From Zanthoxylum bungeanum (Eukaryota; Streptophyta; Magnoliopsida; Sapindales; Rutaceae): DNA of 64,000 nucleotides. The stretch is taken from contig SKCR01051194.1 of assembly GCA_019454045.1 (NCBI GenBank), forward strand, positions 1 through 64,000, given 5' to 3'. Below the pieces are notes generated by a model. It saw nothing but the letters and a program-made list of their open reading frames with translations. It made no database searches and was not told the origin of the DNA. This document shows, in pieces, positions 1 to 60,572 of this stretch. Both the position numbers and the translations under genes were made by a program. The stretch's first letter is position 1; every line of letters begins with the position of its first letter.

Positions 1-1664
1 ATGAAAAAAAGTGTTGTGTGTCTACTAATTTCGGTTTTGGTCTTTTGATTATATACCAAATGCACTTGAATAATCTAATTCATTTCAAACAATTTGGTTT
101 AAATCCCAACCACACACATCACCTTTTGTCAACAAGTCACATCACATCACTTTTCAAACATCAATCAATCCAATCAATTGTCACATCACTCAAAGTGACA
201 TGATTTGACGCTTGATGCGACGCTAGGTGCGACTAGCGATTTGACGCTTGATTTGACGTGCCGCACTCGAATTCTAAATACGAATGCGCTCGTAAAAATC
301 TCGGGCTCGGGTTCGTTAATTCCAAATTAACGAATTTTCCGTTGCGTCGTAATTAAACGATTACACCAAGCGAAATCACTATTCACGTCGCTAACGAATT
401 AATTCTAAATTAATTCGTTCACCCGAATTAAAATCTAATTTTAATTCCGCGTCGAAATCTAATTTCGATTAATATATCAAATATATTAATTCCTCGATTA
501 ATTCCAAATTAATGTTTCTCTCTCTTCAATCGTTATTTTATCTTAGATAAAATATCTCCGCAATTAATCCCAGATTAATTTTCTCTCTCATCTAATTAAT
601 CCCAGATTAATATAAGTGCGAGTCATACGTCATCGGTGAATCTTTGGGAAGCGACCCATGAGATCCCCGGATATGTCGGTAGTCAAATCGGTCGTCGGAC
701 TATCCGAACACGTAAGTACCTCGTACTACGTTTATACCTTTACAAGACAATGTTGGCTTCTAGCAAAGCACCATGTCTATCCATTCTCCGGAAACATCCT
801 TACAGGAATAAGGATCTATATCAAGCGTAGTATACCGTAGTATTGTGCGTATCGGCCCAGTATCGGATAATCACGTGCTAGGGCTGGGCTGGATAAGTGT
901 CTACCCCGTCCGAAGCACATATCGGATGTCTGGTAACATAGTCTCTATAATCGGATATACATGACCTGGTCACAATATCCCGATTGGTTGCGCAACACTC
1001 AAGAGCACTAGTACCGTATCCTGCGTGACATCATCTCCAATATGACTGAAGTGACACTTCCGTCTTGACATCACACCCAATACTCTACGACTCTCTTGAT
1101 AAACCCAGAAGTGGTGTACACAGAACCGGTCAAAGCCCCCTACCACCAAAACCAAAGTTTATCGATTATCGTAAGTATTAGCGATGCAAGTCTCAGGTTA
1201 AGACTATACACACCTACCTTGATTTCGGCCTCCCATAGACACATAGTCATAATACCAATGGGATTCCGAAGGGTCTATCCAGAGCGAAGCTGTTTCCCGT
1301 ACCATCGGTGTGAAACACGACCTCCTATCGCACTTGCATAAGTATCCAATACTTATATATATGAGAACTATGTCGTTGTGCCCTCACAACGCACACAAGT
1401 GCAATACTAGCCTATTCCGCATTATCGATGTCCAGTCTCGATAATACTACGGCTAGGGATATTTAATGATTAATCCTTCGTGGACTGATACTGTCTCATA
1501 TCATCTCCAATCCAGGAACTAATCATAGGGACCTCTCTTCATTTTATATCTATGGTGATCTAATCACAAATGATGAGAGTGCAATTTCCTTATTACATAG
1601 TTAATTTGCTACAACAACACAATGTCTGTGCAAATAGTGACGCTATGGGTCATATTATCCAACA
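1..1664 (-). repeat. Left (3') LTR of element A, truncated by window edge
   Basis: Bases 187-1664 align directly with about 4795-6278 and, inverted, with 58557-60070. The right boundary is the inverted-repeat terminus CCAACA. It contains the nine-hairpin array at 312-611. Short open frames here are not genes: the sequence is AT-rich LTR DNA, and its two other copies do not keep the same frames. Confidence 0.85.
312..611 (-). repeat. Array of nine triloop hairpins in copia LTR (copy 1)
   Basis: Nine perfect inverted repeats follow one another, each around 3 nt. Arms: 312-321/325-334, 393-404/408-419, 425-434/438-447, 452-458/462-468, 468-477/481-490, 497-503/507-513, 535-542/546-553, 562-569/573-580 and 595-601/605-611. 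Stems are 7-12 bp. Plus-strand loops are CCA, CTA, CTA, CTA, CAA, CCA, TTA, CCA and CCA, so in the element's sense strand most read TGG or TAG. The last few are separated by short pyrimidine-rich spacers. No function is known to me. Confidence 0.9.
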
Positions 1665-4173
1665 AAATGTCTAACTATTTAATCAATTTCATTAAAGGGT
1701 ACTATTTATTATAATGATTACAATAATCCAATTATTTAATCAACTATAATCTTAATATTGATTACTATAATCCAATTATAAAATCAACTATCATTTTAAT
1801 TAATTATATTGATTACTATAATCCAATTATAAAATAAACTATATATCGAATGAGTTTGTATATATCCAACTATATCTATATTTTTAAAACAACATAAAAA
1901 TTAGTCCAACTATACTTTTGATTAATATGACGAGTAAAATATAGATGAGCGCGTTTAGCGAGTATTCGAACGAATGTTACAAATTCAATACTTGCCTCCC
2001 ACTATTTTTCGTCGAGCCTCTAACCCTCTGTCGAGTACTCGGGAAACCGTGTTTCCTAGTGGGCTAGGATCCCGTTAAATGTCACACAATCTTGACTTTG
2101 GCCAACAAATTGTATGATAATTAACTAGGTAGATCTCGAAGATCAATTGGATCTCATCCAACTCCTAGATCCAGTAGGTGGGCATCCAAGTCCCAAACAT
2201 ATATCTAATATATGCCTATATATCGAATATATACCCTAACATTTTTCCTCTGAATCAACTAGGCATTGGCTTTGGCACAACAAACCTAGTGATCCCAGTC
2301 AAGCGCGGACCCATTGACATGGAAGCTTCGTAATCAATGTCGATGGACAAGAAGTGGTCTTGACTTTGGCCAACAAACCACAACTTGGACACGACACCGA
2401 TATGGACAAAAGCCTCATAATTAAAACACATCTTCGACGGACAAGGGCTTGACTTTGGCCAACAACCCCTGCCAATCTCGGATCTTGAGCAAGAATCACT
2501 CAATGGAAGGAAAATAAACGCTTGATATTTAACGAGGGTTTTTCGCGTGCAAATTGGCTACCAATTTAATTATCTTTGTTAAGGTCTCATCATCATACAC
2601 CCTTAAACATGCATTCTAAATACATAATAAAGCGAGTATGAAAATAAACAATAATGATATGCGGATGGATACTTTACATTGATCCTAGATCAAATCTCTC
2701 CCTTTCTCACTCAAGCTAGCACTAGTATTACTTCTACCCGTTACACTACACTTCTAAAGAAACCTCATTTACATGAAGGGGAATAGGTGAGAAGAGAATA
2801 CAAAGAGAATGAAGGTGATAAGGCTGGACACGCAGGTCCAATTTAATAAATCGAATTTATTACAACAATTTCTAAAATTGCCACCCATCTAATATCCATC
2901 CGATATACATTATTCATTCAACACAACCACGTATTCACACACATAAGCATGTTATCAATCAATCTAATCAAATTAATTAATCTGATAATTAAGTGATCAT
3001 CCAATGTTCAAACAACGATTTGATTTTGTTCGAGTCAAACTCGTTTTTGCGAATTAGTACTTAAAGTACGAATTCATTAATTAAATTAAACTACATCATT
3101 AAATCCAATATAACATGTATTTAATTCTAATTCACTATTCAATTCCAAATTAAATATTACACTTTTATTTAATAAACCTTTTACGATTTAAATTCCAAAT
3201 TTAATCGTAACGCGTCTCAAAGACCGATTAACGTCCAACGTCAATTCAATTAAAGTCCAATGGGCTTTTAATCGATTTCTTTAAGGCATGGGCTTCGGCA
3301 ACCAAAGCCCAATCAAAGGTAACCCCATAAGCCTAAAAATCAATTTAGGCCCATTAGGCCCAATTGAACTTAAAGGTTCATTAGTCGCATTTGGGCTTTA
3401 TGGTTAAGGTTTTGGGCCCAATTGGATCCAATCCACTTGGCCTAAACCAAACTTGATAAATCAAGCCCAATAGGCCCAAATACAACATTAGAAGACCAAA
3501 TCCAATTTAAGCCTAAATAATTAAATTTCATGAATCCAATTCCGCAATTTAATTACCTAAAGTGCATTACATGATTAATTAACTAAATCAACATTTCCAA
3601 AACACTAAATTAGTCCAATTAATCATACTCAATTCATTATTATATGTCCAACACACAAATTGAAAAATCAAACCCATTACATGCTTTTAATGCTCTCGAC
3701 CAAAGGAGGGATTTTGTGTCCGATTCGGTTTCGATCCAATCGAACCCACAATCGACATCAAATCACCATCCAATTTGATTTCATACACATCCAATGTCAC
3801 AAAATCAAAATTACCAAGACATTAGGGCATAATACCTATTCGGCCAAGGTGATCAATTTGGGGATTTTATGTTCAATTCAAAATCCAATCCAATTAGTTT
3901 CAAATTAACATTATCCTTAATTATTCCAACTCATCAAATGAATCAAAAACAAAATTCCAAGAATTCCAAACATGCTTCAACATTCGGCCAAGGTAAACTT
4001 TTTGGGGAAAATTATTCCAAATTAATTTTCAACAAATTGGTCCAACCAAAATGCAATTAGACATGTTATAAGCATACTCAAACAATCAATTTATTCAAAT
4101 CATGCTCAAAACAAATTTACCCAAATTTTAAGCCCTACAATTTCATGCTTGAACCTATAGCTCTTGATGCCAT
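1665..4173 (-). other. Non-coding interior of element A
   Basis: No retroviral domain was found on either strand. Bases 1722-1831 hold three more CCA-loop inverted repeats. An 18-base motif, CTTGACTTTGGCCAACAA, recurs near 2091 (its first base lies just outside the exact match), 2358 and 2448. A polypurine-tract-like stretch lies on the minus strand near 1990-2000, about 330 bp from the LTR rather than adjacent to it. A 13-bp stem with a CCA loop lies at 3181-3210. ATTCGGCCAAGGT-type motifs recur near 3838 and 3982. The rest is AT-rich spacer, as expected of a large non-autonomous derivative. Confidence 0.6.
4160..4172 (-). promoter_or_regulatory. Primer binding site, initiator tRNA-Met type
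   Basis: Read on the minus strand, the sequence just inside the right LTR is TGGCATCAAGAGC. This differs from the usual plant copia site TGGTATCAGAGC by one substitution and one inserted A. It lies one base from the LTR terminus, so the right LTR is the 5' LTR and the element reads right to left. Confidence 0.75.
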
Positions 4174-4610
4174 TGTTGGTTATTATCTAGGTCCCAAGAT
4201 CAAACAAGACATGAAAAGAATGTGTGAACTCACCAACCGAGATAGCGGAATACTCACATCGATCGGTTGAGTCGATTTGGAGACGAACGAAGCCACAAAA
4301 CCCATTGGTTTGGTGCGCCCACTGCTGCAGTTCATGCTCACTGGTTTGGCAGTTTCGAGTCTCATTTCGAAGCTCCAAACTCCGTCGGATGAGTCCCGCC
4401 TCATGGGTGAACCTCCCTAACACCTTCGCAATAGTCGTAAGTGTGCTAGCACTTGATTTCTCAACATGAAAATCACTCATTGCTTCCCTTTAAGCTCACG
4501 GCAGTGAGCTGTGAAGAAGAAGAGAATGAAGCCCCTTGGGCGTGAGTTTTGGTGAGAAAAGAGAGAAGTGAAAAAAGTGTAAAAGTTAGTGATGCATTTT
4601 CCAAAAATGC

Positions 4611-4618
4611 TTTATATA
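4611..4618 (-). promoter_or_regulatory. TATA-like box in element A 5' LTR
   Basis: The minus strand reads TATATAAA about 1.66 kb into the LTR. It is the best core-promoter candidate in this LTR. The transcription start is not determined. Confidence 0.4.
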
Positions 4619-4760
4619 TTTTCCAAGAAAATACATTAAAAACAATTACCAAAAATAATTTATCAAATAAATAAAATGGTAAAGTCTCCACCAATTTTAC
4701 TATTTCACCTACTTCCATCAACTATTCAATGTCACTTTAATAAAGTGATGTGATGCAAGT

Positions 4761-4803
4761 CAATCCATCAATCCATCAATCAATCAATCAATCAATCAAT
4801 CAC
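4761..4803. repeat. ATCA/CAAT microsatellite
   Basis: Imperfect CAATCCAT units pass into about five perfect ATCA repeats. The left LTR has only a shorter CAATCAATCC-type stretch (about 161-180), so the tract changed length after insertion. Confidence 0.85.
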
Positions 4804-4922
4804 TCAAAGTGACTTTTGATTTGACGCTTGATGTGACGATTGATTTGACGCTTGATGTGACTTGCGTCGCCGCACTCGAATTCGAAATACGAATGCGCTC
4901 GCAATCACACTCGGACTCGGGT

Positions 4923-5222
4923 TCGTTAATTCTAAATTAATGATTTTTTCGTCGCGTCGTAATTAAATGATTACGCCTAGCGAATTCACTATTCACGTCG
5001 CTAACGAATTAATTCTAAATTAATTCGTTCGCCCGAATTAAAATCTAATTTTAATTTCGCGTCAAAATCTAATTTCGTTTAATATATCGAATATATTAAT
5101 TTACCGATTAATTCCAAATTAATCAATCTCTCTCTTTAGACGATATTTTATCCCAGATAAAATATCTCCGTAATTAATCCCAGATTAATTTTCTCTCTTT
5201 CTTCTATATAATCCCAGATTAT
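4923..5222 (-). repeat. Triloop hairpin array in copia LTR (copy 2)
   Basis: The equivalent hairpins are 4923-4941 (8 bp with one G/T mispair), 5003-5029 (12 bp), 5035-5057 (10 bp with one G/T), 5062-5076 (weakened by a mismatch), 5079-5099 (9 bp), 5106-5124 (8 bp), 5142-5166 (11 bp), 5172-5190 (8 bp) and 5208-5222 (6 bp). Loops vary (CTA, CGA, CCA) while arms stay complementary. Two stems are longer here than in copy 1. Confidence 0.88.
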
Positions 5223-6284
5223 TAATGAGTGCGAGTTATACGTCATCGGTGCATTATCGGGAAGCGATCCATGAGATCTCCGGATAAGTTGGCAGTAAAT
5301 ACGGTCGTCGGAGTATCCGAATCACGTACATACCAAGTACTACGTTCTACCAATTTACGAGACAAGGTCGACTCCTAGCAAAGCACCAAGTCTATCCAAT
5401 TCTCTGGACATATCCATTTAAGAATATTAAGATCTGTATCAAGCGTAGTATACCATTGTATTGTGTGTATCGGCCCAGTATCGGATAGTCACGTGCTAGG
5501 GTGGGGCTGGATAAGTGTCTGCCCCGTCCGAAAACATATCGGATGTCTGGTAACATAGTCTCTATAATCGGATATTCATGACCTGGTCACAATATCCCGA
5601 TTGGTTGGCGCAACACTCAAGAGCACTAGTACCGTATCCTGCGTGACATCATCTCCACTATGACTGAAGTGATACTTTCGTCTTGACATCACACCCAATA
5701 CACTACGACTCTCTGATAAACCCAGAAGTGGTGTACGCAGAACCGGTTAAAGCCCTATACCACCAAGAAAAGTCTATCGATTATCGTAAGTATTAGCGAT
5801 GTAAGTCTCAGGTTAAGACTATACACACCTACCTTGATTTCAGCCTCCCATTGACACATAGTCATAATACCAATGGGATTCCGAGGGGTCTATCCAGAGG
5901 GAAGCTGTTTCCCATACCATCGGTGAAACACGACCTCCTATCGCACTTGCATAAGTATCCAATACTTATATATATGAGAACTATGCCGTTGTGCCCTCAC
6001 AACGCACACAAGTGCAATACTAGCCTATTCCGCATTATCGATGTCCAGTCTCGATAATACTCCGGCTAGGGATATTTAATGATTAATCCTTCGGGGACTA
6101 ATACTGTCTCATATCATTCTCAGTCCAGGAACTAATCACAGGGACCTCTCTTCATTTATATATCTATGGTGATCTAATCACAAATGATGAGAGTGCAATT
6201 TCTTGTCACATTGTTAATTTGCTACAACAACACAATGATATGTGCAAATAGTGACGCTATGGGTCATTTTGTCCAACACGACAA

Positions 6285-6765
6285 TGGTTCATTTCTGAAC
6301 TATTACTGTGTGAGATGATGGTTCATTTCCGAACTGTTACTTATTGATATGTGGTCCATTTTCGAACCGTTACTTGATGAGATAATGGTCTATTTCTGAA
6401 TCATTATTGATGTGAGGGGGTTATTTCGAACCGTTACTTAATGAGAGATGGTTCATTTCTGAACTGTTACTGATTTGAGATGGTTCATTTTTGAACCGTT
6501 CCTGAGTTGTGATGGTTCATTTTTGAACCATTCCTGAGTTGAGATGGTTCATTTTTGAACCGTTCCTGAGTTGTGATGGTTCATTTTTGAACCATTCCTC
6601 AGTTGAGATGCTTCATTTTTGAACCGTTCCTGAGTTGAGATGGTTCATTTTTGAACCGTTCCTAATTGTGATGGTTCATTTTTGAACCATTCCAAAGTTG
6701 AGATGCTTCATTTTTGAACCGTTCCTGAGTTGTGATGGTTCATTTTTGAACCGTTCCCGAGTTTC
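6285..6765 (-). repeat. Tandem 32-bp hairpin repeat array, about 15 units
   Basis: Imperfect 32-bp units are built around the palindrome GGTTCATTTTTGAACC, which has 6-bp arms and a T4 loop (A4 in the element's sense). Units near the element A junction are more diverged than those around 6480-6760. The array sits where the Tat lineage usually has 3'UTR tandem repeats. A homologous array is at 27984-28372 in element D. Confidence 0.9.
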
Positions 6766-7251
6766 TCGTCTTTGCCTCATTTTCCTTTTTTTCAAAACCT
6801 ACGAACACAAAATAAAAATTGCATGTATATGATGTGTATGCATATATGCTTGGATGCATTCCCTATTCCGATGGGTTAGGCCTTTCTTATGCTCATTTGG
6901 TGCCCTTCGCCTATTAATGCATTTAGTCGGCCCCAAGCCTACTTACAATTTCCTTCTGTCAATTCTATTCCATTTTTTACTTACAAATAAAACTCCCTTG
7001 GTTTTTACACTTGCCAAGATTAATTATCTTTGTCCAATTAATATCAAATATGCTCATGTCACGCACGTTATGATGCAAACCGAAAAGATTCGAACAAGTA
7101 AGCAAAATAATGTCTTTATGACTAATAAATGTGGGATTACAAAAAAATATATTCGTCATCTATAGCCTTGCCTTCTTCATTCTTATTGGTTCATTTGAGC
7201 GTCAGATTCTCTGACTGCAGTAGTTCTTCTATCTATTCATTCTTCTCTTTG
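6766..7251 (-). other. Spacer between gag and tandem array of element B
   Basis: It matches 28373-28836 of element D almost collinearly. The array-proximal part, with the ATGATGTGTATGCATATATG segment and GATGGGTTAGG, resembles sequence just downstream of integrase in E1 (about 38100-38210). The pol deletion therefore ends near the integrase 3' end. Short frames here are not conserved as proteins. Confidence 0.6.
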
Positions 7252-27983: not shown

Positions 27984-28372
27984 TGGTTTATTCTGAACCA
28001 TTACTGATGTAAGATGATGGTTCATTTCCGAACTGTTACTTGTTGGGATGGTGGTCCATTTCCGAACCGTCACATAATGAGATAGTGGTCCATTTATAAA
28101 CTGTTACTGATGTGATGTGGCTCATTTCCGAACCTTTACTTATGAGAGATGGTTCATTTCCAAACCGTTACTGAGTTGAGAGATGGTTCATTTTTGAACC
28201 GTTCCTAAGTTGTGATGGTTCATTTTTGAAACATTCCTCAGTTGAGATGGTTCATTTTTTAACCATTCTTGAGATGTGATGGTTCATTTTTGAACCATTC
28301 CTGAGTTGAGATGATTCATTTTTGAACCATTCTTGAGTTGTGATGGTTCAATTTTGAACCATTCTTGAGTTT
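27984..28372 (-). repeat. 32-bp hairpin repeat array of element D, about 12 units
   Basis: Same unit family and GGTTCATTTTTGAACC core as in element B. Units toward 28140-28372 are more regular. A few arms carry single changes that break the stem (e.g. near 28230 and 28260). Confidence 0.9.
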
Positions 28373-28836
28373 CTCGTCTTTGCCACTTTTTTTTCAAAAC
28401 CTGCGAACACAAAACAAAAATTGCATGCATATGATGTGTATGCATATATGCGTGGATGCATTCCCTATTCCGATGGGTTAGGACTTCCTTGTACTCATTT
28501 GGCGCCCTTCGCCTATTAATGCCTTTAGTCGCCCCCAAGTCTGCTTACAATTTCCTTCTGTCAATTCTATTATGTTTCTTACTTACAATTAAAACTCCCT
28601 TGGTTTTCACACATGCCAAGATTAAATGTCTTTGTCGAATTAATATAAAATATGCACATGTCACGCATGCTATGAAGCAAACCGAAAAGATTCGAACAAG
28701 TAAGCAAAATAATATTTTTATGACTAATAAATGTGGGATTACACAAATAAATATCTTCGTTATCTACAGCATTGCCTTCTTCAGTCTTCTTGGTTCCTTT
28801 GAGCGTCAGATTCTCTGACTGTTGTAGTTTTTCTAT
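28373..28836 (-). other. Spacer between gag and hairpin array of element D
   Basis: Collinear with 6766-7251 in B. No protein domain seen. The part nearest the array resembles sequence downstream of integrase in E1. Confidence 0.65.
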
Positions 28837-40490: not shown

Positions 40491-41486
40491 CTAATCATTC
40501 CATTTCACTGGCTGGTATTTCCTCAACAGTTTGAAGATAGGCTCACATACTGACGTCAACTTGGTGATGAACCGACTGATGTACTGAATCTTCCCCAGGA
40601 ATGCTCTGACCTCCTTCTCGGTTTTTGGTGCTGGCATTTCTGTGATTGCTTTGATATTTTCATAGTCTACCTCTATTCCTCCCATTCCCACTGTATGGCC
40701 AAGTAATTTTTCGGATGTCACTCCAAACACACAATTCTTAGGATTCAGCCGCAAGTTGTACTTATCGACCCTCTGAAGGAACTTCTCCAATGCTTCTGTG
40801 TGCCCGATTCTTGTCTCTGATTTCACTATCATGTCATCCACAAACACTTCAATCCCTTTGTGCATCAAATCATGAAATAATGTAGTGGCCATCCGTTGAT
40901 AAATAGCTTCTGCATTCTTGAGCCTAAATGGCATTACTTTGTGACAATAAGTACCCCACTCGGTAACAAAGGCAGTTTTGTGCTTGTCTTCCTCTGCCAT
41001 AGGAACCTGATTATACCCTGAGAAGCCATCAGCAAACGGGTACATGGCGGACAAAGTTGCGCTGTCAACCAATACATCTATATGCGGTAGAGGAGAATCA
41101 TCTTTCGGGCAAGCCTTGTTGAGATCTCTGTAGTCCACACACATTCTGACCTTCCCGTCTTTCTTCGGCACTGGCACAATATTTGCTAACCATTTAGGAT
41201 ACTTTACCACTTCCAGGAACCCCACATCTATCTGTTTCTTGACTTCTTCTCTAACTTTTTCAGCCCATTCTGGTCTCATCCGTCGGAGTTTCTGTTTCAC
41301 TGGCCTCATATTCGGATAAGTTGGTATTGTGTATTGGGCAATACTTCTGTCTACCCCAGGCATGTCCTCATAGGACCAAGCGAACACTTTGGCATATTTG
41401 ACCAATACTTCTTCTAATTTCTCCCTCTCCTCAGAGGTAACTTCTCTTGCAATCAGAATTTCCTTAGGGTTCTCAAATGTGCTCAA
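40491..41486 (-). CDS. RT: Reverse transcriptase, open fragment of 331 codons (E1)
   Basis: This is the longest open Tat RT in the window. Domains in order: linker end with SYEDMPGVDRSIAQYTIPTY (residues about 40-60), KQKLRRMRPEWAEKVREEVK, VPVPKKDGKVRMCVDYRDLN (about 105-125), FADGFSGYNQV, and FVDDMIVKS with the catalytic YxDD-type motif at 40833-40844, then LGHTVGMGGIEVD and FLGKIQYISRFITKLT. It is part of a Gag-Pol polyprotein, so its first Met is not a real start. All RT motifs are present. Confidence 0.9.
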   Translation of the reverse strand: MSTFENPKEILIAREVTSEEREKLEEVLVKYAKVFAWSYEDMPGVDRSIAQYTIPTYPNMRPVKQKLRRMRPEWAEKVREEVKKQIDVGFLEVVKYPKWLANIVPVPKKDGKVRMCVDYRDLNKACPKDDSPLPHIDVLVDSATLSAMYPFADGFSGYNQVPMAEEDKHKTAFVTEWGTYCHKVMPFRLKNAEAIYQRMATTLFHDLMHKGIEVFVDDMIVKSETRIGHTEALEKFLQRVDKYNLRLNPKNCVFGVTSEKLLGHTVGMGGIEVDYENIKAITEMPAPKTEKEVRAFLGKIQYISRFITKLTSVCEPIFKLLRKYQPVKWND

Positions 41487-41507
41487 GTTAAATGCAGTAG
41501 TTTTGGC

Positions 41508-46961: not shown

Positions 46962-47759
46962 CTATAGAAGCAGGATCCACCTAATCAATCTGGCCTTAGC
47001 ATCTTTCTTCGAAAGGAGGTACTTAAGAGCTGCATGGTCGGTGAGAATGGTGATGGGGGAGCCAATTAGGTATGCACGAAATTTTTCCAATGCAAAGACT
47101 ACTTCCAACAGTTCTTTTTCAGTTGTGGAATAGTTCATTTGGGCACTGTTTAGAGTTCTACTAGCATAATACACGACAAAAGGTTTCCCTTCATGTCTTT
47201 GTCCTAAAACTGCCCCAACTGCGTAATCACTAGCATCACACATAATTTTGAATGGTAAATTCCAATCAAGTGGTTGCATGATTGGGGCAGAGGTGAGTTT
47301 AGTTATAAGCGTCCTGAAGGCACTTTCACACTCCTGTGTCCATTCAAATGAAGAATCTTTAGCGAGAAGGTTACACAGTGGTCTAGAGACAGAAGAGAAG
47401 TTATATATGAATCTCCTATAGAAACCAGCATGCCTAAGAAATGATCGCACATCTTTAACAGTTTTGGGTATTGGCAGCTTAGATATCAAATCGATCTTTG
47501 ATTTGTCGACTTCAATGCCTTTGGATGAGACAATATGACCTAGGACGATTCCTGAAGAGACCATAAAGTGACACTTTTCCCAGTTCAAAACGAGGCCTTT
47601 TTCTTGACATCGTCTTAACACTATTTTTAGGTTAAGCAAACATGTATCAAATGAGTCGCCAAACACTGTTAAATCATCCATAAACACCTCCATATACTTT
47701 TCAATCATATCACTAAAAATGCTCAGCATGCATCTTTGAAAGTGGCAGGGGCATTGCAT
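46962..47759 (-). CDS. RT-RH: RT C-terminal half and RNase H, Athila-like, open 265-codon fragment (H)
   Basis: The frame opens with FQRCMLSIFSDMIEKYMEVF and has the catalytic FMDD at about 47673-47684, then GLVLNWEKCHFMV, GIVLGHIVSSKGIEVDKSKI and FLRHAGFYRRFI. RNase H follows with CDASDYAVGAVLGQ, STTEKELLEVVFALE and LTDHAALKYLL, so the Asp/Glu/Asp residues are present. A frameshift at about 47755 separates it from the upstream RT residues read in the chimeric frame. Athila-type rather than Tat-type by these motifs. Confidence 0.9.
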   Translation of the reverse strand: MQCPCHFQRCMLSIFSDMIEKYMEVFMDDLTVFGDSFDTCLLNLKIVLRRCQEKGLVLNWEKCHFMVSSGIVLGHIVSSKGIEVDKSKIDLISKLPIPKTVKDVRSFLRHAGFYRRFIYNFSSVSRPLCNLLAKDSSFEWTQECESAFRTLITKLTSAPIMQPLDWNLPFKIMCDASDYAVGAVLGQRHEGKPFVVYYASRTLNSAQMNYSTTEKELLEVVFALEKFRAYLIGSPITILTDHAALKYLLSKKDAKARLIRWILLL

Positions 47760-48457
47760 AAACCAAATGGCATGCGGCGAAAAGCATAAGTTCCGAAAGG
47801 GCAGGTGAATGTGGTTTTCTCTTGATCTTCCAATGAGATCTCAATTTGGTAATATCCTGAATATCCATCCAGGAAACAGTAAAATGGGTGACCAGAATCT
47901 ACCTCTATTCCGCCCATTCCCACTGTATGACCTAGTAATTTCCCTGACGTCAATCCAAACACACACTTCTTAGGATTCAACCGCAAGTTGTATTTGTCAA
48001 CTCTTTGAATGAACTTTTCAAGTGCCTCTATATGCCCGATTCTTGTCTCTGATTTCACCATCATGTCATCCACATACACTTCAATATCCTTGTGCATCAA
48101 ATCATGAAATAATGTAGTGGCCATCCGCTGATAAGTAGCTTCTGCATTCTTAAGCCCAAACGGCATTACCTTGTAACAATAAGTACCCCACTCTGTGACG
48201 AATGCAGTTTTGTGCTTGTCTTCTTTAGCCATAAGAACCTGTTTGTACCCCGAAAACCCATCCGCAAATGAGTATATAGCAGATAAAGCCGCACTATCAA
48301 CCAGAACATCTATGTGCGACAGTGGAAAATCATCTTTTGGGCAAGCCTTGTTGAGATCTCTGTAATCCACACACATTCTGACTTTTCCGTCTTTCTTCGG
48401 CACTGGCACAATGTTGGCCAACCACTCGGGATACTTCACTACTTCCAAAAACCCCAC
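47723..48457 (-). CDS. Chimeric Tat/Athila reverse transcriptase frame, 244 codons
   Basis: Residues 1 to about 190 are Tat RT (VPVPKKDGKVRMCVDYRDLN, YVDDMMVKS at 48065-48076, LGHTVGMGGIEVD). From about 47890 the same frame reads Athila RT (GHPFYCFLDGYSGYYQIEI, RRMPFGLCNAPATF). The polypeptide would therefore carry palm motifs from one lineage followed by earlier palm motifs from another. The Tat part is preceded by a stop at 48458-48463 in the polyprotein frame. Activity is unlikely. Confidence 0.88.
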   Translation of the reverse strand: MGFLEVVKYPEWLANIVPVPKKDGKVRMCVDYRDLNKACPKDDFPLSHIDVLVDSAALSAIYSFADGFSGYKQVLMAKEDKHKTAFVTEWGTYCYKVMPFGLKNAEATYQRMATTLFHDLMHKDIEVYVDDMMVKSETRIGHIEALEKFIQRVDKYNLRLNPKKCVFGLTSGKLLGHTVGMGGIEVDSGHPFYCFLDGYSGYYQIEISLEDQEKTTFTCPFGTYAFRRMPFGLCNAPATFKDAC

Positions 48458-55959: not shown

Positions 55960-56229
55960 TAACTACCCTTGGGTATGTACTTAAATTAGGAAAGTGTTAT
56001 AATGTAACTAGTTTGACTAGAAAAATTATCTCTATATCAGTGTTTTACCCGCTGCGGGTGAACCTTTATATTCTAAGACACTAAAGTGTTTCATTATATA
56101 AAGATGATATTGAGATAAACACATTAGATGTGAAAAATAGCATTTATATTTTGAATATAAATAATATCTAAAACGTATAACATGACAAACAAATAGGTCA
56201 AACTGATTTGATCAGAAGAAACTAATTGT

Positions 56230-58340
56230 GGGATTATTGTATGGGACATAACTAAAACAAGAATCGTATATCCGCACTTTTAAAGAGTGGGTACTAGGAC
56301 TGTTTTGATTCCAATCAAATAAATTTTACGAATCTAGTTTATTGGGCAAAGTGCCTAAAGCACTATTTACTTGGTAAAAGTGTAAATGCCACTGATCTGT
56401 TAGCCCTAGTTCATAGTGAAGCAAGTGGGCCCATGTCTAGCTAGGCTAGATGTGGATATGAATATTTCGTGACCTTTACGGATGTGGCATCGCGTTATGG
56501 TTATGTGTTTCTATTGAAACACAAATCAGAAACTTTTAAAGTTTCGACACGAAATAGACAAACAAATCGGCTAAAGTATTAAAGCCGTCACGGTAAGACC
56601 GTAATGAAAAATACTTAAGTAATAAGTTTCTCGTATACTTGAAAGAGTATAGTATTCTTTCAAATGAGGACTCCTCCTGGAACACGTCATTTTGACGGTG
56701 TGTCCGAACAGAGTCGCTTTGAGCTACCATTTCCTTCAACAGATAAGCTTTAAACAGTGAAGAATTTATTTTGAATAAGGTTCCATAATAATCTGTTTGA
56801 TAGATTACATATTAGATATGAACGGGAAAGAAACTAGGTTTCTCATTCCTGAAAATTTGGGTATGTTGGGCATATGTTTGGATGATACCAAACTAGAACC
56901 CAAATTGGATAAGTGCCAATTAAAGGTTATCTAGGGAAACCATAAGCATAGTGCTTATACAACTCACTAAGAGAACAATGAAATTATTGCTCACCATGCG
57001 GTTTTCCTAAGAGCAATACCGATATGCAGTGATAAGTGGGAGGATAGTAAAACTCGATGAAAATCGGTGTAATACTATTCAAGGCATTGATCCCTAATGG
57101 AACAGAAATAGTTTATCAAGGATGAAACTGTACCAGTAATCTTCGAATACACAAGAACCGCATAGATCGGAGAGAGTCAGAAAATAACCCGGGGTATGGG
57201 TTTCTGATCTCACCTCATAAAGATGTCTACTTTTGAGGTACACCAACTGACTACGTATGAGGTAGTGATACATGGTATCGACTCCCTATTATGGCAAAGT
57301 GCCATATGAATCCGAAATGGATTCCATGTATATCAACTGTGTTTAGAATACTAGTTGATGTACCGCAAGGCATTGTGCCTACTGGTACTATATAAGTCTT
57401 CAAGGAAGATATACATGGATGGCAACATACCAACGTACAAAGCTAGGCTTGTAGCGGAAAGGTATCGTTATCAACATTGTGGTGATTATGCTTTAACCTT
57501 TTAACTGTTGCCATGGTAAATCATTTGGATAATGCTTGCTAAAGCTGCATGTTTCATCTGTGAAATATGACAGCTTAACGGGAAAATCGTTTTCCTTAAA
57601 AGGAAACCATTTGGAGGATGTTTACAACATCCTGTCGGTTTTGTCGTACCAAAACTAGCAAACAAGGTTTGCAGGTTAATCGATCCATGTTTGGATTGAA
57701 GCAAGCATTGAGTACTTGAAATTATCGTTTTGATGTAATCATAATGGTGTATGATTTAATTCAAAACGAAAATAATTCTTGTGTATATAAGGAGGTTAGT
57801 GGGAGCACACTGACAATAGCTTTCCTATAAATAAAGATAATATGTCATTTCTTGGAAATGCTATTCCCATAAAAATATAATCGGTGAAAGCTAGGCTTTC
57901 GAGAAAACTCTCCGAGAAACTCGTACATTGAAAAATGTTCATGACCTAATGTCTTATACGCTTTGAGCATATGGATTCACAATTGGGCCAATCCAAGTGA
58001 TAGTCACTGGATTGATGTTAAGAACATCCGTTAGTATCTTAGATATCAAAGGATGATGTCTTAATCTGTGGAGAAGGAGAACTTGAAGTGACTGGGATCA
58101 CTACTGCAAGTTTCCTAAACCAATAAAACGACTATAAGTCACAAACGGTACTATACAGTTTGAATAACGGTACAGTGAGCTGGAAATCTTCCAAGCAAGA
58201 TACTGATTCCGAATAAACGACAAATGCGGGTAATTGCTGCAGCTGTGGCAGGAATAGAAGCCATCTAGGTCAATAACAAATCTAATTAGATTAGATATAG
58301 TTATGTTAGTAGCTGAGCTAGGCGCCAGCACAGACTAAAG
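56230..58340 (+). pseudogene. pol: Copia integrase, RT and RNase H pseudogene (F)
   Basis: Readable parts, in several frames: GLVHSEASGPMS-like and GYEYFVTFTD at 56400-56500 (integrase core), LKHKSETF, then a KTLRSDRGGEYLS-like stretch near 56590, SSWNTSF-type PPGTPQ remnants near 56680, TYKARLVAERYR near 57440, QLNGKIVFLKRKPFGG and PVGFVVPKLANKVCRL near 57565-57675 (RT), and SWKSSKQDT near 58175 with an A-A-A-rich stretch after it (RNase H). Stops and shifts are very frequent, so this is an old copy. Bases 55960-56229 show no clear domain. Confidence 0.78.
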
Positions 58341-58543
58341 AATTAATGGTCTCATCAATGATCCAGATATATACTTCGACTATTCATCTGATTCGTTCGG
58401 ATCATATATCGTAGCGATATGAAGATCGTATAAATCGTATCAGACGATGATCATGCAAATCCCGCTGATGAAACCGTTTCCTCAGTAATTTGAGCCAACC
58501 GTACATAGTTTAGGTGTAAGACACTTGAGTGACTGGCTATAGG

Positions 58544-58556
58544 CCAAGTGAGAGAT
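58544..58556 (+). promoter_or_regulatory. Polypurine tract of copia element F
   Basis: CCAAGTGAGAGAT lies directly before the LTR start, a form typical of plant copia elements (AAGTGGGAGATT). Confidence 0.7.
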
Positions 58557-60572
58557 TGATGGACAGTTATGACCCATAGCGTCACTATTTGTACAGATCA
58601 TGGTGTTGTTGTACAAACTAACTATGTGACAAAGGAGATTGCACTCTTATCATTTGTGATTAGATCACCTAGATGTATAAATAATGAGAGGTCCTTATGA
58701 TTTGTTCCTGGATTGAGAATGATATGAGACAGTATCAGTCCACGAAGGATAAATCATTAAATATCCCTAGTCATAGTATTATCGAGATTGGACATCGATA
58801 AATATGTAAAAGACTAGTATTACACTTGTGCGCGTTGTGAGGATATAACGACATAGTTCTCTTATATTTGGGTATATGATACTCATGCAAGTGTAGTATG
58901 AGGTTGTGTTTCACCGATGTTACGGGAAACAACTTCGCTCTGGATAGACCCCCGTGGAATTCCATTGGTAGTATGAATATGTGTCTGTGAAAGTCTGAAA
59001 TCAGGGTAGGTGTATTTGGTATTAACCTGAGACCTGCAACGCTAATACTTGCTACAATCAATATACTTTGGTTGCGGTCGTCCATGGCTTTAACAGGTTC
59101 TGTGTACGCCTATGCTAGGTATATTGAGAATCGTAGTGTGTTGGGTGTGATGTCAAGACGGAAGTATCACTCCAGTCGTAGTGGAGATGATGTCACGTAG
59201 GATACGGTACTGGTGCTCTTAAGTACTGCAGTCATCGGGATATTATGACTAGGTCATGAATATCTGATATAGAGACTAGTTACCAGACACCCGACATGTG
59301 CTTCGTACGGGGCAGACACAGCTCCAGCCCCAGGCCTAGCACGTGACAGTCCGATACTTGATCGAAATATGCAATACTACGTATATTACGCCTGATACAG
59401 ATCCTTTATTCCTATAAGGATATTTCCGGAGAATTGGGTAGGCATGGCGCTTTGCTAGAGGCCAACCTTGTCTTGTAAATTGGTAAAACATAGTACGAGG
59501 TACTTACGTGTTCGGATAGTCTGACGACCGAATTTACTGCCAACGTATTCGGGGATCTCATGGGTCACTTCCCAAAGATTCACTGATGACATATGACTCG
59601 CACTTTAATTAATATGGGATTAATTAGAAGAGAGAGAAAATTAATCTGGGATTAATTTCGGAGATATTTTATCTAGGATAAAATATCAAAAAAAGAGAGA
59701 TAACGATTAATTTGGAATTAATCGGTAAATTAATATATTCGATATATTAAACGAAATTGGATTTCAACGCGGAATTAAAATTAGATTTTAATTCGGGTGA
59801 ACGAGTTAATTTAGAATTAATTCGTTAGCGACGTGAATAGTAATTATGCTTGGCATGATTATTTATTTAAATTAGATTTAATTAAGACGCAACGGAAAAT
59901 TCTAAATTAACTCGTTCGAATTCGAATGCGGCACGCAAGTCAAATCAAGTGTCAAATCGTTAGTCGCATCATGCTTCAAATTGCTAGTCACTTCAAGCGT
60001 CAAATCACTTGTCACTTTGAGTGATGTGACTTGACAACTTGAGTGATGTGACTTGACACTTGATTGATGTGATTGAGTGATGGGAGTGGTTGGAGCCTTT
60101 ATTGGTTTTGACTTTTGGAGGGAAAAATTATGTATATGATTTATGAAAAATCATTTACCATTTTTAATGTAACAATTACCTCTCTCTCTCTCGCCCATTT
60201 GAGGGCTGTTTTGCTTCTGTTCTTGGCAGTGAACTGCCATGGAAATGGAGGAAAATGGGAATTTTTGAGTGGGATATTGTGGTAAAATCTCAAGTGCTCG
60301 CACACTTACGATACTTGCGAAGGTGATAGGGAAGTCCACCCATAAGCCGGAAACCGTTCGACAAAGCTCGGAGCTTGACGAAGGATCCAAATCAAGGCCA
60401 AACCAGTGAGCAAAACTGCTCACTGCCGAATGCAGTGAAGAAGAAAAGAAATGGTTTTTGTTGTCTCCGCATCGCTCAATCGATCGATGTGAGTATTCCG
60501 CAACTTCTCGATTGTTATTCACACATGTTTTCATGCTTATTATTGATCTTGGGACCTTAATAGAAACCAACA
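58557..60572 (+). repeat. 3' LTR of copia element F
   Basis: 2,016 bp from TGATGGACA to AACCAACA. It is inverted relative to both LTRs of element A and aligns along its length. The frames in it are not genes. The third copy of the hairpin array is at 59605-59830. Confidence 0.86.
59605..59830 (+). repeat. Triloop hairpin array in copia LTR (copy 3)
   Basis: Clear stems: 59639-59646/59650-59657 (loop TGG), 59663-59673/59677-59687 (11 bp, loop TAG), 59704-59712/59716-59724 (9 bp, loop TGG), 59730-59738/59742-59750 (loop TCG) and 59772-59781/59785-59794 (10 bp, loop TAG). A further 11-bp stem with one G/T lies near 59801-59830. The hairpins at the array ends are degraded. Confidence 0.88.

Follow-up and report, generated by a model that had tools for sequence, protein, structure and literature searches.

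In the 64,000-nt stretch of Zanthoxylum bungeanum DNA analysed here (the window), copia retrotransposons carry short perfect stem-loops, mostly with the sense-strand loop T-N-G, along the whole element, most densely in an array within the LTR (Table 1). These hairpins are far beyond chance, coherent in strand and found across copies of the family. Judging from the sequence, we give a probability of about 0.48 to the reading that they are kept as single-strand hairpins with a U-N-G triloop, likely in the genomic RNA; that they may be bound by Gag is put forward with less confidence. A first-pass annotation had described the array as a 300-bp feature of a copia LTR. The array is indeed present, and the copia assignment holds, since the family's relic pol aligns with an ORF matching RVT_2, but the hairpins span the whole element and the rule that they follow is T-N-G with strand coherence.

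Table 1. Positions of the LTRs, internal regions and hairpins (window coordinates, except for family B)
Feature	Position	Strand	Remarks
LTR copy 1	1-1664	-	cut by the window edge; sense start TGTTGG at 1664
Array in LTR copy 1	312-611	-	nine stem-loops with 3-nt loops (sense = minus)
Array hairpin 1	312-334	-	arms 10 bp, sense loop TGG
Array hairpin 2	393-419	-	arms 12 bp, sense loop TAG
Array hairpin 3	425-447	-	arms 10 bp, sense loop TAG
Array hairpin 4	452-468	-	arms 7 bp, sense loop TAG
Array hairpin 5	468-490	-	arms 10 bp, sense loop TTG
Array hairpin 6	497-513	-	arms 7 bp, sense loop TGG
Array hairpin 7	534-554	-	arms 9 bp, sense loop TAA
Array hairpin 8	562-580	-	arms 8 bp, sense loop TGG
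Array hairpin 9	595-611	-	arms 7 bp, sense loop TGG
Further hairpin in LTR copy 1	1338-1356	-	arms 8 bp, sense loop TGG; counterpart in LTR copy 2 at 5951-5969
Internal domain, short-form element	1665-4173	-	without an ORF above 100 aa; hairpins e.g. 2198-2214, 2217-2233, 2551-2567, 2844-2862, 3188-3204
LTR copy 2	4174-6278	-	sense TGTTGG...CCAACA
Array in LTR copy 2	4921-5225	-	perfect hairpins 5003-5029, 5036-5056, 5079-5099, 5106-5124, 5142-5166, 5172-5190, and shorter ones
Relic copia pol	55961-58563	+	upstream of LTR copy 3; similar to L009; bears 3-nt-loop palindromes
LTR copy 3	about 58557-60572	+	3' LTR of the relic; ends taken from sequence
Array in LTR copy 3	59600-59925	+	T-N-G on the plus strand
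Family B LTRs	L030 from about 3700; L033 about 1600-3960; L036 about 5300-6720		N-N-G sense loops

All nine of the perfect, 3-nt-spaced inverted repeats with arms of 7-12 bp that the annotation had described were relocated, and its statement that the sense loops are mostly TGG or TAG is correct. Hairpin 534-554 is able to close one base deeper, giving a 1-nt spacer; hairpins 452-468 and 468-490 overlap by one base; and a 58-bp gap without a hairpin (335-392) follows the first hairpin. A strict count of 3-nt-spaced palindromes, which leaves out those able to close further inward and admits no overlaps, gave 7 at 312-611; 1000 dinucleotide shuffles of the sequence averaged 0.056 and never held more than 1. 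The corresponding counts for the other two array copies were 6 at 4910-5235 (shuffle mean 0.074) and 5 at 59600-59925 (0.093), with a maximum of 2 in the 1000 shuffles of each. Over window positions 1-6276, 23 inverted repeats with arms of at least 7 have a spacer of 3 nt, and every other spacer from 0 to 15 occurs at most 5 times. AT-richness was rejected as the cause, in agreement with the annotation, because dinucleotide shuffles do not yield such runs and fall far short of the observed hairpins. The serial duplication that it had offered as one reading is seen locally, in the one extra hairpin unit of the copy in L033; simple serial duplication does not explain nine hairpins with differing arms, and the extra unit is present in just one of seven copies compared. 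Purine runs of the GAGAGA type lie between the array hairpins at 5106-5190 and in their counterparts, and the additional unit in L033 consists of a hairpin plus a purine run. A known RNA family was likewise rejected, as the window gave 0 Rfam matches at gathering scores, and a single scan of one hairpin against viral contigs gave no match.

The loop rule can be stated most simply for 3-nt-spaced palindromes with arms of at least 5, where the sense loop is T-N-G in 12/14 cases in LTR copy 1, 14/16 in copy 2, 11/13 in copy 3 and 19/21 in the internal domain, and C-N-A is found in none of the four. When arms of at least 6 were required and all 16 loop-end combinations counted, T-N-G made up 32 of the 36 palindromes in window 1-6276 and 23 of the 32 in L009, an internal domain of 5.7 kb (0.15 and 0.21 expected from 100 shuffles). 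The LTR L004 has 12 such T-N-G loops (0.02 expected) and window 55.9-60.57k has 16 (0.17 expected). At this arm length C-N-A is absent from all four regions; with arms of 5 it was seen twice in L016 and once in L021, and with arms of 6 in neither. L009 has more A-N-G loops than expected as well (5 against 0.15), and the loops of the palindromes in the relic pol are T-N-G and A-N-G, with one TAC. LTR copy 3 is reversed relative to copies 1 and 2 and the T-N-G strand switches with it, so that the bias follows the orientation of the element.

Two simpler origins of this bias were tried and rejected. Deamination of C-N-G centres to T-N-G should make C-N-A equally frequent, and few 1-nt-spaced palindromes remain. 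A general property of the genome can be dismissed because window 6277-55900, with 3 T-N-G palindromes of arms of at least 6 against 1.0 expected (10 shuffles), is near chance, and the 8-kb stretches L034 and L035 are without the pattern. Among five 8-kb stretches taken at a fixed position, L032 and L033 contain LTRs of the array's family, and L033 and L036 contain LTRs of a second copia family (family B); all five were drawn from contigs already known to bear copies and are no measure of abundance. An AT-rich flanking stretch in L017 (about 3000-5100) has N-N-G loops in 12 of its 13 3-nt-loop palindromes, in the orientation opposite to that of the neighbouring LTR.

Recurrence in other family members, a point raised in the annotation, was found in an alignment of 46 array copies, 39 of them picked by similarity to array copy 3. 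Stems and the T and G of the loop are conserved, and the middle base varies fast. Minor alleles in the 46 copies amount to 201/8210 in stems (2.4%) against 405/6019 elsewhere (6.7%). Within the loops they amount to 7/500 (1.4%) at the T, 67/500 (13.4%) at the middle base and 21/501 (4.2%) at the G, counts that take in one spurious centre (a TTT loop at column 140), the hairpin at columns 134-159 having been broken by the conflict rule. The 16 internal domains gave 40/5423 (0.74%) in stems against 1080/81204 (1.3%) elsewhere, with loop values of 2/397 (0.50%), 9/398 (2.3%) and 2/398 (0.50%) for T, middle and G; the LTR figures computed alongside are left out, those copies having been selected by array similarity. 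In five diverged pairs, where 1278/7487 of the other sites had changed, the middle loop base had changed in 18/50 cases (p = 0.001) and the outer two in 8/99 (p = 0.015). Stems were less diverged than other sites in every one of these pairs, but the difference reached significance only for LTR2/LTR3 (p = 0.0055). A middle base that outpaces its surroundings is not explained by free loop positions alone, and it counts against the RNA reading.

Several hairpins show coordinated change of their two arms. For example, one internal hairpin takes a different form in each of three subfamilies (those of L009, the window and L016), and all three forms pair perfectly. In 8 of the 10 comparisons, which share sequences, there were more compensated pairs than d-squared/3 predicts; examples from the internal domain are 7 against 1.8, 7 against 1.2 and 5 against 1.4 expected, and the two comparisons without an excess gave 0 against 0.23 and 1 against 1.33. 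For LTR2/LTR3, 4 of the 8 compensated pairs lie within a poorly aligned part. Under the array structure 90.6% of cells are paired, against 20-58% for slid versions, a comparison that favours the structure, which was derived from the same sequences. Changes within stems gave G.T 36 times against A.C 16 over all ten comparisons (21:6 in a chosen subset) and 14 against 12 in the LTR comparisons alone. Among the 46 array copies the counts were 10 against 5 for shared variants (Fisher p 0.24) and 14 against 11 for singletons (p 1.0). These wobble counts lean to sense RNA and are only suggestive.

A single-stranded stage, RNA or cDNA, is indicated by the strand bias, because duplex DNA has no reason to favour T-N-G over C-N-A relative to transcription and because chromosomal replication is blind to the orientation of the element. 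We infer that selection or a mutational process acted on a single strand, most likely the sense RNA. Among the three readings in the first-pass annotation, the evidence most favours a structured RNA, and the strand asymmetry speaks against the cruciform or another duplex-DNA form. The folding z-scores of the three arrays were -3.7, -4.0 and -7.6 for the sense strand and -7.3, -5.2 and -9.4 for the antisense strand; in 3/3 arrays the antisense strand has the stronger value, which counts against a sense RNA.

Each unit of the sense strand consists of an arm, 5'-T-N-G-3' and the complementary arm, with an exchangeable stem and a constant tip. On the preferred reading, what is kept would be the single-strand hairpin with its U-N-G triloop, and the molecule in which it matters would most likely be the genomic RNA. 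By analogy with retroviruses, each hairpin may hold out an unpaired G as a contact for an RNA-binding protein, the simplest candidate for which, proposed with less confidence, is a helper copia Gag acting through its CCHC zinc knuckle; a CCHC motif is present in the Gag region of family B. An ORF-less element might in this way gain many dispersed sites for packaging or nucleoprotein formation. Retroviral zinc knuckles are described as taking an exposed guanosine and contacting the preceding bases, and the single-knuckle NC of MoMuLV as binding UCUG through the G (PMC7599994). The hairpins here would share with the packaging stem-loops bound by NC an unpaired G for a CCHC knuckle and the presence of several sites per RNA; the retroviral sites in that account, tetraloops or linkers, belong to the 5' leader, unlike these, and the likeness is an analogy only (PMC7599994). 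A wider proposal, which we hold to be doubtful, is that copia elements in this genome bear U-N-G RNA stem-loops with exchangeable arms over the length of the genomic RNA that are read by Gag, and that non-autonomous members, freed from coding, accumulated such sites along all of their RNA and are thereby packaged in preference to other RNAs. Should the hairpins prove to bind protein, the use of helper particles by ORF-less plant retrotransposons would have a cis-signal that can be read from sequence, and perfect arms around T-N-G on one strand would be a simple rule by which to orient copia elements.

Selection on RNA is likelier than its rivals, the main one being snap-back synthesis by reverse transcriptase. 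Here the enzyme would turn back at small loops and copy one arm onto the other, perfecting near-palindromes, and the strand coherence would come from the polarity of reverse transcription, with no benefit to the element required. This could account for the hairpins in the relic pol, where an old function is not expected, and it fits both the fast middle loop base and the LTR comparisons, which have no wobble excess. By itself it does not predict loops that begin with T and end with G, or stems that are better conserved than their surroundings, and we consider it a possible but rather less probable origin. If reverse transcriptase did make the hairpins, they would be a visible footprint of strand-specific snap-back synthesis.

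It is less probable again that the palindromes work in duplex DNA, as transcriptional cis-elements of U3 like the repeated motifs of Sirevirus. A dimer site gives no cause for T-N-G, and never C-N-A, relative to transcription; moreover, the arms vary between hairpins and the internal domain is filled with the same hairpins. The position of the array does agree with a cis-element, in that it lies upstream of a TATA-like site (present in 6 of the 13 LTRs examined) with CGTCA repeats between the two. The remaining suggestion, that small RNAs of host silencing are made from the hairpins or directed at them, appears highly improbable. Single hairpins of the array measure only 17-27 nt with the loop counted in, which is short for a plant Dicer substrate, and this reading gives no reason to expect a constant U-N-G tip. 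The suggestion draws on maize copia elements, for whose palindrome-rich LTR regions such a role has been reported (PMC10760457).

The family is a high-copy, ORF-less (non-autonomous) copia. Searches of the host assembly (3.96 Gb, 51709 contigs) returned 2082 first-look candidates with array 1, 1726 with array 3 and 1019 with the short 2.5-kb form; 40 of each were scored and 40 matched. The 1019 candidates indicate that the short-form element has multiplied too, yet its 3' LTR junction is without the AAGTGGGAG tract that adjoins the LTR in L009. On six contigs two array hits are spaced about 7.8 kb apart, which with an LTR of 2.1 kb would give full elements of ~9.9 kb. The internal domain L009 has no ORF of 100 aa, but a pol relic with copia RT and RNase H survives in it and aligns with ORFs of L030 (tblastn best E 7e-18, 27-48% identity), which match PF07727 RVT_2; 17 further internal domains or parts match L009 at about 96-98%. 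No remnant of gag was seen in the family copies read. In the window, LTR copies 1 and 2 flank the 2.5-kb internal domain, and copy 3 sits after the relic pol. LTR2 is followed by ATGGCATCAAGAGC, which may resemble an initiator tRNA-Met PBS. Short direct repeats rich in CGTCA/TGACG lie between the array and the TATA-like site, at about 4780-4870 and 180-260, and most of the LTRs examined have 4 CGTCA.

The first-pass annotation went too far in stating that no LTR feature of this form had been described, as Sirevirus LTRs bear palindrome arrays (PMC2829016; PMC10760457). In the account of PMC2829016, a single palindromic motif is repeated there upstream of the TATA box, with a CGG-CCG core in 12/13 elements, and it is reported absent from classic copia elements. 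The family resembles Sirevirus in its short-palindrome arrays in the LTR upstream of TATA and in the order of PPT, AT and the TG of the LTR (PMC2829016). Sirevirus, as described there, has one motif per element; here the arms differ and are AT-rich, the T-N-G loop is on one strand and the hairpins are element-wide. Of three Sirevirus features, the family has one and lacks two. The AT/TG attachment site is present, the 3' junction of L009 reading AAGTGGGAG, AT, TGTTGG. Clustered PPT octamers near the 3' LTR are absent: the Sirevirus octamer AGGGGGAG occurs 0 times in L009, L010 and L011, and AGTGGGAG occurs 4 times in each, at positions 2432, 4421, 4927 and 5674 of 5691 in L009, so that one is near the LTR. 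A single repeated palindromic motif with the CGG-CCG core is also absent, the arms being heterogeneous and AT-rich.

In maize, structured regions of copia elements have the palindrome CACCGGACNNNGTCCGGTG in common, which has the same 3-nt spacer between its arms as the hairpins here; it is a single motif, and the passages on it give no strand rule for the spacer (PMC10760457). In its long ORF-less internal domain and many copies the family resembles LARDs; conserved RNA structures have been attributed to LARDs and TRIMs alike, those of LARDs being called well conserved in secondary structure (PMC7215508). Compared by description only, the family differs from LARDs in its recognisable copia pol relic and its many small hairpins under one loop rule. 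Known LTR palindrome arrays differ from the pattern here, in which heterogeneous arms are combined with a single triloop confined to one strand and the hairpins extend throughout the element, a combination that literature searches at the abstract level did not find.

In family B, N-N-G is the sense loop of 13/16, 8/10 and 3/6 palindromes in three copies; in a stretch with the same hairpins reversed, the loops are mostly C-N-N. Some of these hairpins are retained at 66-72% identity, for example an 8-bp stem with the loop TGG or TTG in 3/3 copies. Fragments of RVT_1 and RNase H from other retroelements lie at 40491-41507 and 46962-47840, in the part of the window without hairpin bias, and 32-bp tandem repeats are present at 6290-6770 and 28113-28435.
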